The notes beneath the pieces were generated by a model. The model saw only the letters and a program-made list of their open reading frames with translations. It was not told where the DNA came from and searched no databases. Both the position numbers and the translations under genes were made by a program. A DNA stretch of 58,759 bases from Nitrospirota bacterium (GTDB lineage Bacteria; Nitrospirota; Nitrospiria; Nitrospirales; Nitrospiraceae), in contig JAGWTI010000010.1 of the NCBI GenBank assembly GCA_028876065.1, forward strand, positions 1 through 58,759, written 5' to 3'. Positions 1,203 to 46,448 of the stretch are shown in pieces; positions within the stretch are counted from its first letter, which is position 1, and each line of letters begins with the position of its first letter.

Positions 1203-1265
1203 AGTTTTGAGTTGCGAGTTTTGAATTGAAAACTCAAAACTAAAAATTAAAAACTCAACACTGGG
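1203..1265. repeat. Degenerate heptamer array A (inverted arms)
   Basis: Nine consecutive 7-mers sit in perfect register. The left arm has AGTTTTG, AGTTGCG, AGTTTTG, then AATTGAA at the turn, and the right arm has AACTCAA, AACTAAA, AATTAAA, AACTCAA, CACTGGG. The arms are roughly complementary, so the array can fold as a hairpin. It fills the gap between the AhpD-like gene and the 96-aa gene. Confidence 0.75.
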
Positions 1266-13177: not shown

Positions 13178-13265
13178 AGCTCAAGCCGTCAGCCGTGGGT
13201 CAGCTCTCAGCTTTAGCAAGAGGGCGGATATTCCAAGAGCTGATAGCTGACTGCTGATGACTGGA
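13178..13265. repeat. Degenerate heptamer array B (inverted arms)
   Basis: Left arm: AGCTCAA, GCCGTCA, GCCGTGG, GTCAGCT, CTCAGCT (13178-13212). Right arm: AGCTGAT, AGCTGAC, TGCTGAT, GACTGGA (13238-13265). The arms are roughly reverse complements around an 18-25 nt loop. It lies between the amidotransferase gene and dapL. Confidence 0.75.
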
Positions 13266-13293: not shown

Positions 13294-14469
13294 ATGGCCG
13301 GATTTCCGATTGAATTTGCGGGCCGAATCAAGACCCTGCCGCCCTACTTGTTTGCCGCCATCGACGAGATGAAGCAAAAGGCCATCGCGCGGGGCGTGGA
13401 TATCATCAATTTGGGCATCGGCGACCCGGATCTGCCGACGCCGAAGCCGATCATCGATGCGCTCGGCCGAGCCGCCGCCGATCCCAAGAACCATCAATAC
13501 CCGTCCTATGAGGGGATGCTCGCCTTCCGCAAGGAAGTGGCGGACTGGTACAAGCGGCGGTTCAATGTCACGCTGGATCCGGTCTCCGAGGTCTTGACGT
13601 TGATCGGCTCCAAGGAAGGCATCGGCCATATCCCCCTGGCCTTCGTCGATCCGGGCGATGTCGTCCTCGTGCCGAGCCCCGGATACCCGGTCTATCCGGT
13701 GGGAACCAGCTTTGCCGGCGGGCAGTCGTACCTCATGCCGCTGGAAAAGAAGAACGGGTTTCTCCCCGATCTCGACGCGGTTCCCAAGGACGTGGCCAAG
13801 AAGGCCAAGCTCATGTTCCTCAACTCCCCGAACAATCCGACCTCCGTGGTCATGAGCAAGGATTATTTCAAACAGGTCGTGGCCTTCGCGCAGGAACATC
13901 AGGTCATCGTCTGCCACGACGCGGCCTATTCGGAGATTTTCTACGACGGCAGGCGGCCGGCCAGTTTTCTGGAGATTGACGGAGCCAAGGACGTCGGCAT
14001 CGAGTTCCACTCCCTCTCCAAGACCTACAACATGACCGGCTGGCGCATCGGCTTCGCGGTGGGCCACAAGCAGGTCCTGACCGGGCTGGGGAAGGTGAAG
14101 AGCAACCTGGATTCGGGCGTCTTTCAGGCGGTGCAGGAGGCGGGCATCGCGGCGCTGCGGCTGGACGACTCGGTCACCGACGGGCTGCGCAAGGTGTATC
14201 AGGAGCGCCGTGACGTGCTGGTGCCGGGGCTCAAGAAGCTTGGGCTGGAGGTGGACCCGCCCCCAGCGGCCTTCTATATCTGGGTCATGGTGCCCAAGGG
14301 CTATACCTCCGCGTCCTTCACCGCGCATTTGCTGGAGACGGCCGGGATCGTCACCACGCCGGGCAACGGCTTCGGGGCGCCGGGCGAAGGCTACATCCGC
14401 ATGACCGTGTGCACGACCAAGGAACGGCTGGCGGAGGCGGTGGAACGGATCAAGAAAGCCGGCTGGTAG
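13294..14469 (+). CDS. dapL: LL-diaminopimelate aminotransferase
   Basis: The 391-aa fold-type I PLP enzyme has IINLGIGDPDLPTP near residue 38, SPNNPTS near 178, the Schiff-base lysine in SLSKTYNMTGWRIGF (Lys 243), and GEGYIRMTVC near the C-terminus. The opening FPIEFAGRIKTLPPYLFAAIDEMK is characteristic of the DapL2 type. It converts tetrahydrodipicolinate to LL-diaminopimelate in one step with glutamate, replacing DapD/C/E. DapA, DapB, DapF and LysA are encoded at 32169-36102, so the route is otherwise complete in the window. AAAGGAG lies 9 nt upstream. It is monocistronic between two non-coding stretches. Confidence 0.9.
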   Translation: MAGFPIEFAGRIKTLPPYLFAAIDEMKQKAIARGVDIINLGIGDPDLPTPKPIIDALGRAAADPKNHQYPSYEGMLAFRKEVADWYKRRFNVTLDPVSEVLTLIGSKEGIGHIPLAFVDPGDVVLVPSPGYPVYPVGTSFAGGQSYLMPLEKKNGFLPDLDAVPKDVAKKAKLMFLNSPNNPTSVVMSKDYFKQVVAFAQEHQVIVCHDAAYSEIFYDGRRPASFLEIDGAKDVGIEFHSLSKTYNMTGWRIGFAVGHKQVLTGLGKVKSNLDSGVFQAVQEAGIAALRLDDSVTDGLRKVYQERRDVLVPGLKKLGLEVDPPPAAFYIWVMVPKGYTSASFTAHLLETAGIVTTPGNGFGAPGEGYIRMTVCTTKERLAEAVERIKKAGW

Positions 14470-15979: not shown

Positions 15980-16123
15980 CCAACGGTCTCCTTTATCGTC
16001 CGACTTGCAGTAAACATCAGAACTAGTGTAATCGTTTTGATGGGTAAGCCGGACTCTAGCCAGTGACCACAAAGATGTCAAACGCTTCTACACTGAACAG
16101 TGAGAACAGGGCCAGGTCTTGCG

Positions 16124-16151
16124 ATCAGCTATTAGCCATCAGCCATAGGCT
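16124..16151. repeat. Degenerate heptamer array C (single arm)
   Basis: Four 7-mers in register: ATCAGCT, ATTAGCC, ATCAGCC, ATAGGCT. The unit is the reverse complement of the AGCTGAT unit of array B at 13238. It ends 10 bp before folK. Confidence 0.7.
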
Positions 16152-16161
16152 CTGACAAGAG

Positions 16162-16728
16162 ATGTCACGCGAGATCGTCTACATCGGCTTCGGGTCCAAT
16201 TTGGGCGACCGGTTGGATTTTTGTGATCGCGCGGTCACGCTCTTGAGCCTCCTGCCGCACTCCCAGGTGACGGGCGTCTCGTCTCTCTATGAAACGGAGC
16301 CGCTGCCCGAGCACAGCCCCGGGCCTAGCTGGTTTCTGAACGGCGTCGTTCGTCTCGAAACCGACCTCACGCCGCGGAGCTTGTTGGACGTGTGCCGCGA
16401 AGTGGAGAAGTCGCTGGGACGCGATCCGGACCATCGGGACGGACCCAGGACGTTGGATCTCGACATCCTCCTCTACGGAACCAGGGTCATCAACGAGCCA
16501 GGCTTGATCGTCCCCCATCCCCGCCTGCATCTGCGGCGGTTCGTCCTGGAGCCGCTGGCCGAGCTGGCGCCCGATCTGTTGCACCCTCTGTTGAACAAGA
16601 CAGCGCGGGAATTGCTCGCTCAGCTCACGGACCGGTCGGCCGTGCGCCTTCTCGATCCTCAACCCAGCTCGCGCTACGGGAGCCGTTCCTCCTGCAGCCC
16701 TGCAGCCGCGGCTCGGGATTCAGCCTGA
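16162..16728 (+). CDS. folK: 2-amino-4-hydroxy-6-hydroxymethyldihydropteridine diphosphokinase
   Basis: HPPK transfers pyrophosphate from ATP to 6-hydroxymethyl-dihydropterin in folate synthesis. The 188-aa protein shows YIGFGSNLGDR at the N-terminus, SSLYETEP near residue 40, and the signature DHRDGPRTLDLDILLYG near residue 95 with the metal-binding Asp pair, then PHPRLHLRRFVLEPLAE. The C-terminal 30 residues are a Ser/Ala-rich extension beyond the normal fold. The TGA shares one base with the panC ATG, so the two are co-translated. Confidence 0.93.
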   Translation: MSREIVYIGFGSNLGDRLDFCDRAVTLLSLLPHSQVTGVSSLYETEPLPEHSPGPSWFLNGVVRLETDLTPRSLLDVCREVEKSLGRDPDHRDGPRTLDLDILLYGTRVINEPGLIVPHPRLHLRRFVLEPLAELAPDLLHPLLNKTARELLAQLTDRSAVRLLDPQPSSRYGSRSSCSPAAAARDSA

Positions 16729-33004: not shown

Positions 33005-33877
33005 TCAAATGAGCCCATAGTCTTTTATGACCTGGGCCAGTTTCTCGCGCGGCTCCACCGACATCGGGCAGAGCGGCAGGCGAAGCTCGCCGTCGATCTT
33101 CCCCATCAGGGCCAACGCGGTTTTCACGGGAATCGGATTGGTCTCGTAAAATAAGGCGGTGAACAGGGGGTAAAGCTTGTAATGCAATTTCCTCGCGTCG
33201 TCCAAGCGGCCGGCCAGGAAGGCGGACGTCATCGCCGCCATGTCGGCCGGGGCGATGTTGGCGGTCACCGTGATCACGCCCTTGGCGCCCACCGCCATCA
33301 TGGGCAGCGTCAAGGCATCGTCGCCGGAGAGCACCGTCATCCGGTCCCCGCAGGCCTGGATGATTTCGGAGACTTGCGGCAGCGAACCGGCGCCTTCCTT
33401 GGTCGCGACGATGTTGCGGATCGCCGCCAACCGCGCCACGGTGGCCGGCGCCATGTTCACGCCGGTTCGGCCCGGAATGTTGTAGAGGATGAGGGGCAGG
33501 TCCACGGCTTCCGCCACCGCCTTGTAATGAAGGAACAGCCCTTCCTGCGTCGGCTTGTTGTAGTAGGGCGTGATCAACAGGGCCCCGTCGGCCCCCGCCT
33601 TCTTCGCATGCTTGGTCAGCATGATCGCTTCGTCCGTGCTGTTGGAGCCGGTGCCGGCGATCACCGGGACGCGCCGGCGGACCACTTCGACCGTCAGCGC
33701 CACGACCCGGTCATGTTCGTCATGGGACAACGTGGCGGATTCGCCGGTGGTGCCGCAGGGCACGATGCCGTTGGTCCCGTGGGCGATTTGAAATTCGATC
33801 AGGTCGCCCAGGGCTTGCTCATCCACCCGGCCGTCGCGGAACGGGGTGACGATGGCCACATGTGAACCGGTGAACAT
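33005..33877 (-). CDS. dapA: 4-hydroxy-tetrahydrodipicolinate synthase
   Basis: The 290-aa TIM-barrel aldolase condenses pyruvate with aspartate semialdehyde. GTTGESATLSHDEH is the substrate motif, LLITPYYNKPTQEGLF carries the catalytic tyrosine, YNIPGRTGV the carboxylate-binding arginine, and VATKEGAGS the Schiff-base lysine. Length and motifs are typical. A heptamer array separates it from dapF upstream. Confidence 0.96.
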   Translation of the reverse strand: MFTGSHVAIVTPFRDGRVDEQALGDLIEFQIAHGTNGIVPCGTTGESATLSHDEHDRVVALTVEVVRRRVPVIAGTGSNSTDEAIMLTKHAKKAGADGALLITPYYNKPTQEGLFLHYKAVAEAVDLPLILYNIPGRTGVNMAPATVARLAAIRNIVATKEGAGSLPQVSEIIQACGDRMTVLSGDDALTLPMMAVGAKGVITVTANIAPADMAAMTSAFLAGRLDDARKLHYKLYPLFTALFYETNPIPVKTALALMGKIDGELRLPLCPMSVEPREKLAQVIKDYGLI

Positions 33878-33890
33878 CTGAGAACCTCCC

Positions 33891-33918
33891 GTGAGGCGTG
33901 AAACGTGAAGTGATTCGA
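33891..33918. repeat. Degenerate heptamer array D
   Basis: GTGAGGC, GTGAAAC, GTGAAGT, GATTCGA in strict register, followed by partly complementary CTCACGC, CCGACGT at 33933-33946. It lies in the dapF-dapA gap, 14 bp before dapA. Confidence 0.65.
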
Positions 33919-37820: not shown

Positions 37821-37888
37821 GTTGTCGGTCGTCGGTTATCGGTATGCAGTTTTGAACGGAGAACCGACAACTGAGAACTGAAAACGGA
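37821..37888. repeat. Degenerate heptamer array E (inverted arms)
   Basis: Left arm: GTTGTCG, GTCGTCG, GTTATCG, GTATGCA, GTTTTGA (37821-37855). Right arm: GAACCGA, CAACTGA, GAACTGA, AAACGGA (37861-37888). The two arms are reverse-complement-like around a 5-nt loop. It sits in the argG-argH gap, 3 bp from the argG stop. Confidence 0.8.
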
Positions 37889-37891
37889 ACG

Positions 37892-46371: not shown

Positions 46372-46448
46372 TGGTGCGCCCGGCCCGACTTGAACGGGCG
46401 GCCTGCGGGTTCGAAGCCCGACGCTCTATCCAACTGAGCTACGGGCGC
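46372..46448 (-). tRNA. tRNA-Arg (anticodon TCG)
   Basis: The minus strand folds as a complete cloverleaf of 77 nt with encoded CCA: acceptor GCGCCCG/CGGGCGC, D arm GCTC/GAGC, anticodon loop CTTCGAA giving TCG, and T arm GCCCG-TTCAAGT-CGGGC. The first anticodon-stem pair is a T-C mismatch. It reads CGN arginine codons. Confidence 0.95.

Follow-up and report, generated by a model that had tools for sequence, protein, structure and literature searches.

Tandem heptamer repeats with inverted arms form an abundant class of intergenic elements in Nitrospiraceae and are gained, lost and replaced at fixed sites

The window analysed here is a stretch of 58,759 nucleotides, one contig of a 158-contig, 3.41-Mb assembly (64% GC) from a nitrite-oxidiser-like bacterium of the family Nitrospiraceae. 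Five of its intergenic gaps carried runs of 7-bp units, none of which was assigned a strand:

Array A, 1201-1265, no strand: AGTTTTG (TGAGTTT) family, with arms at 1201-1227 and 1231-1257 around the core GAA.
Array B, 13178-13265, no strand: AGCTGAT (TGATAGC) family, from the lag-7 and inverted-repeat tests.
Array C, 16122-16152, no strand: ATCAGCT, a single arm of the AGCTGAT (TGATAGC) family in the opposite orientation to array B, from the lag-7 test.
Array D, 33891-33918, no strand: a short, degenerate and statistically marginal GTGAAGC/GTGAAAC (TGARRCG) array.
Array E, 37821-37889, no strand: (GTTGTCG)n left arm at 37821-37843, core at 37844-37853 and TGAGAAC-type right arm at 37854-37889.

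All five runs lay where a preliminary description of this DNA had placed them. Array A occupied the whole spacer separating the start of a CMD-family gene (ATG at 1190, minus strand) from the upstream gene's stop codon, its right arm running on as degenerate units to about 1265. Array B consisted of a TCA-type left arm (about 13186-13214), a core and a TGA-type right arm (about 13236-13263), with an aminotransferase gene downstream (ATG at 13294), and an HPPK gene (ATG at 16162) started about 10 bp after array C. Array D was upstream of a DHDPS-family gene (ATG at 33877, minus strand), and array E separated the genes for argininosuccinate synthase and argininosuccinate lyase. The best match counts at lag 7 over 21 positions were 17, 15, 15, 13 and 17 for arrays A to E, respectively, and comparison with Markov-shuffled copies of each gap gave P values of 0.004 (A), 0.001 (B), 0.002 (C), 0.016 (D) and <0.001 (E); arrays A, B, C and E are thus individually significant, and D is marginal on its own. 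Three arrays had been described as folding into two arms, which agrees with their best inverted-repeat scores (A 26, B 26 and E 28, each above all eight of eight shuffles); the same scoring found no second arm for array C. Arrays B and C did share a unit, TGATRGC, in opposite orientation. Calling the register strict was too strong, since the arms contain indels and many variant units. In a relative from the same genus (G003), the gap orthologous to array D held a two-armed AGCTGTC array, and the gap corresponding to array E was without one. In an Rfam search of the window and eight loci, the five arrays matched no family and only tRNA was found; a tRNA gene (RF00005) was located at window positions 46375-46448 on the minus strand.

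The period was assessed across about 0.69 Mb of the window's own genome (G000). Plain autocorrelation across all gaps was diluted by missed coding sequence, so windowed match counts were used instead: a gap was called as containing an array at 15 or more lag-7 matches of 21, in 685 kb, with 40 shuffled sets as control. The comparison of lag 7 with shuffled sequence that the preliminary description had proposed was positive genome-wide, with arrays in 32 of 391 gaps against 1.7±1.3 after shuffling (maximum 5). At lag 14 there were 25 such gaps against 0.9, and lags 4-6, 8-13 and 15 were at or near background, leaving only 7 and 14 to stand out. Period-7 arrays occurred in 8.2% of gaps and in 0.35% of 200-nt coding pieces. 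The lag-7 excess was repeated in G003 (22 of 211 gaps against 0.8 shuffled), where lag 8 was also in excess (7 gaps against 0.7), and in G015, from another genus (18 of 230 gaps against 0.8). In a further genome, G014, raw counts without a shuffled control gave 36 of 222 gaps at lag 7, and 0-5 at each lag other than a multiple of 7. Intergenic runs of 7-letter repeats are therefore a real and abundant class in these genomes.

A full element was about 60-105 bp long, non-coding and palindromic, and consisted of a short unpaired core flanked by complementary arms of 30-32 bp, or about 4.5 heptamers each. Inverted arms beat eight of eight shuffles in 42 of 67 array gaps, and arm lengths peaked at 30-34 nt and again at 23-26 nt, as n×7+4 predicts for n=4 and n=3, and few arms were longer. 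Several sequence families coexisted within one genome. The AGTTTTG family was laid out as ARTT(N3 ARTT)4, core and complement, and the AATGATG family as AAYG(N3 AAYG)4, core and complement. The typical unit was TGA followed by four further positions: about 10% of the trinucleotides in arms were TGA or TCA, compared with 3% in the remaining gaps of these genomes, and the count was 364 against 120 after permuting unit columns (z=17.5). General selection for stop codons is an unlikely reason, as TAG was rarer than expected in the arms (28 against 119). Outside its own family, AGT failed as a control anchor for TGA, as units like TGAATAG contain both. The cores of one family trended from purine to pyrimidine (0.67 to 0.29) and scored slightly above shuffled cores (4.86 against 4.14±0.13), so that at least some cores continue the palindrome. 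The same kind of gap was also used by hexamer families (AAGGTT/GAGGCT) and by an octamer family (AAGTC, 8-bp period, TGAAAGTC), the latter with 28-nt arms at the orthologs of L040:11029 and L042:7881 in G003 and in G001, a second relative from the same genus.

A near-perfect TTCACGC array of about 13 units or more ran at L044:13188-13330 (G000:C116) into the predicted end of the next gene; unlike the short degenerate arrays, it is a candidate for recent expansion. Several arrays of different families were clustered at L067:5288-6734 (G000:C18), where the gene caller splits the sequence, possibly inside a decayed, repeat-rich gene. At L041:3826-3907 and its orthologs, a promoter-like core (GGTTTGACTCC...TGTGTTACCG) was conserved in all genomes compared, with arms or whole hairpins added on one or both sides and, in G014, complementary arms flanking the core.

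To follow the gap of array A, relatives were located via homology of its flanks. Between its two flanking genes, where both were kept, the AGTTTTG state was present in G000, G186, G037 and G036, an AGTTGAA/AATGGAG state in G002 and G184, GGTGATG in G001, hexamers in G003, G015, G011 and G033, GTGATGA in G014 and G018, and AATGTTG in much of one genus; some relatives had an empty gap. Across 54 genomes the 8 states required at least 20 changes when placed on a phylogeny of the adjacent gene, a count that is approximate because the tree is built on 291 nt and weakly supported. G018 and G033 had a heptamer and a hexamer array, respectively, in one gap at about 89% identity across 1.6 kb including the gap. 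Separately, the roughly 100 bp of this gap were identical in G002 (L072) and G184 (L102), which belong to two genera and have flanking genes at 82-91% identity; the gap may be strongly conserved or recently transferred, or one of the two assemblies may be cross-binned.

Other sites, in syntenic blocks, behaved similarly. L041:7175 carried TGAGTGA units in G000 and TGAACGA units in G001-G003 and G184; L041:4825 was empty in G000 and G184 and filled in G001, G002, G003 and G186; L042:7881 had heptamers in G000 and octamers in G001 and G003; and L040:9193 differed in all four genomes compared. Both presence/absence and replacement were seen with flanks intact. Orthologous array gaps were bimodal in identity, one group lying at 0.74-1.0, the other mostly at 0.35-0.57 and few gaps at intermediate values, whereas array-free gaps varied continuously (median 0.73). 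Of the earlier proposal of a shared architecture with drifting sequence, the first half holds, as this is one class with different units; continuous drift does not, as gaps were either conserved (74-100%) or replaced outright (35-57%). Shared arrays also changed in place by substitution and whole-unit indels, with exact unit indels between orthologs of one heptamer at L031:15283 and of 14 bp in L166/L167. At clean insertions no target duplication was visible among the few pairs available (84-92% identity). Turnover at these fixed intergenic sites is thus by discrete gain, loss and replacement. A clean 132-bp insertion without heptamer periodicity (beginning TTTGGTTATCCAATTAATTC) was found in G001 (C12) and G002 (C134) and was absent from G003 (C7, about 178995, L346); it looks like another small, mobile repeat.

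Within the window's own genome, about 20 loci aligned with the element at L040:9193, mostly at 73-80% identity, many over both arms and in a common layout, and the AGTTTTG family occurred at about ten loci. Arms at unrelated loci reached 96% identity over 26 nt. Recent copy-and-paste was examined with searches of whole genomes and with the longest substrings shared, neither of which found a faithful or near-identical donor copy. The lineage-specific array at L041:7175 had only 29-30-nt arm matches elsewhere in its own genome (rated 100% complete, with G001 and G003 at 99-100%), and the arrays of G018 and G033 had no full-length copy above 77% identity in their own bins, which are 88% and 72% complete. 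The similarity of units in order between arms exceeded unit-shuffled controls only weakly, about two-fold, and a genome-specific dialect was strong only in G015, other genomes sharing families.

With about an even chance of being right, we propose that the arrays are a superfamily of small palindromic intergenic repeats that spread by copying, took their period from slippage and are mostly tolerated. Same-family copies at many loci point to some copying process. New arrays would arrive by copying that spreads family members, above all their arms, between loci, in a manner akin to a miniature non-autonomous (dispersed) palindromic repeat; the 7-bp period may originally have been amplified by slippage, and the elements would mostly be tolerated rather than needed. 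Copying is supported by a lag-7 and lag-14 excess confined to gaps, by the modes of arm length, by the inverted arms in 42 of 67 array gaps, by the TGA enrichment, by the roughly 20 same-family loci, by the bimodality of orthologs, by the 20 or more changes at the gap of array A, by exact 7- and 14-bp indels and by replacement between intact flanks. It is weakened by the lack of near-identical copies and, in the few pairs available, of visible target duplications, by the weak excess in shared unit order and by dialects that are clear only in G015.

It is possible, though doubtful, that nothing moves and that arrays are generated locally, by slippage in place at units of about 7 bp and fold-back (template-switch) synthesis of the complementary arm. 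Whole-unit indels of 7 and 14 bp in place, the presence of periods 6, 7 and 8, lineage-specific arrays with no donor copies and a published polymerase-footprint idea for heptamers (PMC4692102) would all suit such an origin. However, it sits poorly with elements of the same family and arm length at about 20 loci of one genome, with arms up to 96% identical over 26 nt at unrelated loci and with arm lengths that peak instead of declining steadily. Fold-back further predicts that arms match better within a copy than between copies, and this was hardly so: complementarity within a copy was 17.1 against 16.0 with the arms of other copies, or about equal.

Selection on functional sites, either intercistronic RNA hairpins (acting in stability, attenuation or translational coupling) or repeated protein-binding sites, appears unlikely. 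Arrays often filled the space from the stop codon of one gene to the ribosome-binding site of the next, and in co-directional gaps they lay a median of 7 nt past the upstream stop and 16 nt ahead of the downstream start. This placement would fit a function, as would the 93-100% conservation of some arrays beside flanking genes at 82-92%, and such roles have been proposed for the STRR and TAACTGA repeats (PMC2670836, PMC4679880). Against it, unit, period and presence varied freely at one site, and there was no bias of operon orientation, 24 of 32 array gaps being co-directional against 295 of all 391. Ten orthologs gave no covariation above control level (84.1% paired cells against 83.5% shuffled), and sense-strand mismatches of G-T (51) and A-C (42) showed no RNA-strand bias. 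A maintained RNA hairpin is not supported by the covariation, mismatch and within- versus between-copy complementarity tests. Where the preliminary description had suggested a common copying or editing process, the copying part is backed by same-family copies at many loci; for editing that keeps arms complementary, neither the complementarity comparison nor the covariation test gave evidence.

A more radical suggestion, which we regard as quite improbable, is that a DNA-writing process other than a classical transposase installs pairs of 30-32-bp periodic inverted arms in spacers and overwrites family and period at one site, without harm to the ribosome-binding site or to the genes on either side. 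Mobilization by a RAYT transposase as REP/REPIN elements is very unlikely: the arrays are dispersed extragenic palindromes and two matches to Y1 transposase occur in the window's genome, but Y1_Tnp had no match in the array-bearing G001 and G003, GTAG/CTAC density was similar in array and other gaps with no enrichment of GTAG, and periodic arms of 30-32 bp are foreign to REPs; we rejected this origin on the missing Y1_Tnp and the absent GTAG enrichment. The earlier judgment that the arrays are neither coding nor known REP elements is borne out by the lack of an excess in coding DNA and of GTAG-tagged REP features.

Heptanucleotide repeats have so far been described case by case, as regulator sites, G-quadruplexes or single-genome oddities, and are treated here as one class, for which we offer a quantitative signature: a period of 6-8, a TGA core and two arms of about 30 bp. 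Single intergenic sites were shown to switch family repeatedly while their flanking genes stayed, and through close Nitrospiraceae strains the old question of how heptamer repeats originate becomes testable. Genomes of the phylum carried between 0 and 418 TGA-anchored four-unit arrays each, and six-unit TGA arrays occurred in at least 17 named phyla, with Bacteroidota and Cyanobacteriota most often represented among the 80 loci listed. By a strict test, in a comparison biased by the query, 8 of these 80 listed loci had a nearby inverted arm, so regular two-armed elements may be more characteristic of Nitrospiraceae. In the open literature searched we found no description from Nitrospirota, which does not prove that none exists. 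None of the five arrays matched Rfam, but heptamer repeats have been published before (PMC2670836, PMC4476775, PMC4679880, PMC4692102, PMC2700814), and these cases make the arrays a variant of a known, poorly explained kind.

REP/REPIN elements (GTAG or CGTC palindromes) likewise comprise many families of small palindromes dispersed outside genes (PMC3733652), but they are 20-40 bp long and have a single stem and a tag at one end, in contrast to the tandem-heptamer arms found here, which have no GTAG tag and no transposase link. In Geobacter metallireducens, class 3 sites comprise five MTYCTGA heptamers, drawn as looping over two strands (PMC2700814), and Xanthomonas and Nostoc carry multicopy arrays of GGGNATC heptamers in a study that found heptamers over-represented in bacteria generally and put forward the polymerase-footprint hypothesis (PMC4692102). 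Both resemble our arrays as multicopy heptamers, but were read by their authors as regulator sites or G-quadruplexes, and our units are not rich in G. The TAACTGA direct repeats known from Beggiatoaceae, cyanobacteria and Bacteroidetes are intergenic, often just ahead of starts, and show 7-nt indels between strains (PMC4679880); they share with our arrays an intergenic, TGA-containing heptamer and such indels, but have a single unit type almost only in direct repeats, whereas those described here are inverted, two-armed and of many units. In the P6b element of the Nostoc trnL intron, heptamers (Class I TDNGATT and Class II NNTGAGT) build the stem of a stem-loop, and the class of repeat there is swapped wholesale in different lineages (PMC4476775). 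A heptamer-built stem and wholesale replacement at one site are common to both systems, although P6b is one site in a group I intron and the arrays occupy many intergenic sites with more unit types. The cyanobacterial STRRs are intergenic heptanucleotide repeats of unknown function that are able to form a hairpin (PMC2670836), and their 7-bp units, intergenic position and potential hairpin are all matched: the arrays consist of degenerate tandem 7-bp units (lags 7 and 14), are multicopy and intergenic, and have hairpin potential. They differ from STRRs in that one genome contains several families, that the inverted arms are regular and 30-32 bp long, that 6- and 8-bp relatives exist and that the host belongs to another phylum. 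We read the arrays, whose units are too short and degenerate to trace descent shared with the cyanobacterial repeats, as a Nitrospiraceae variant of STRR-type hairpin repeats.
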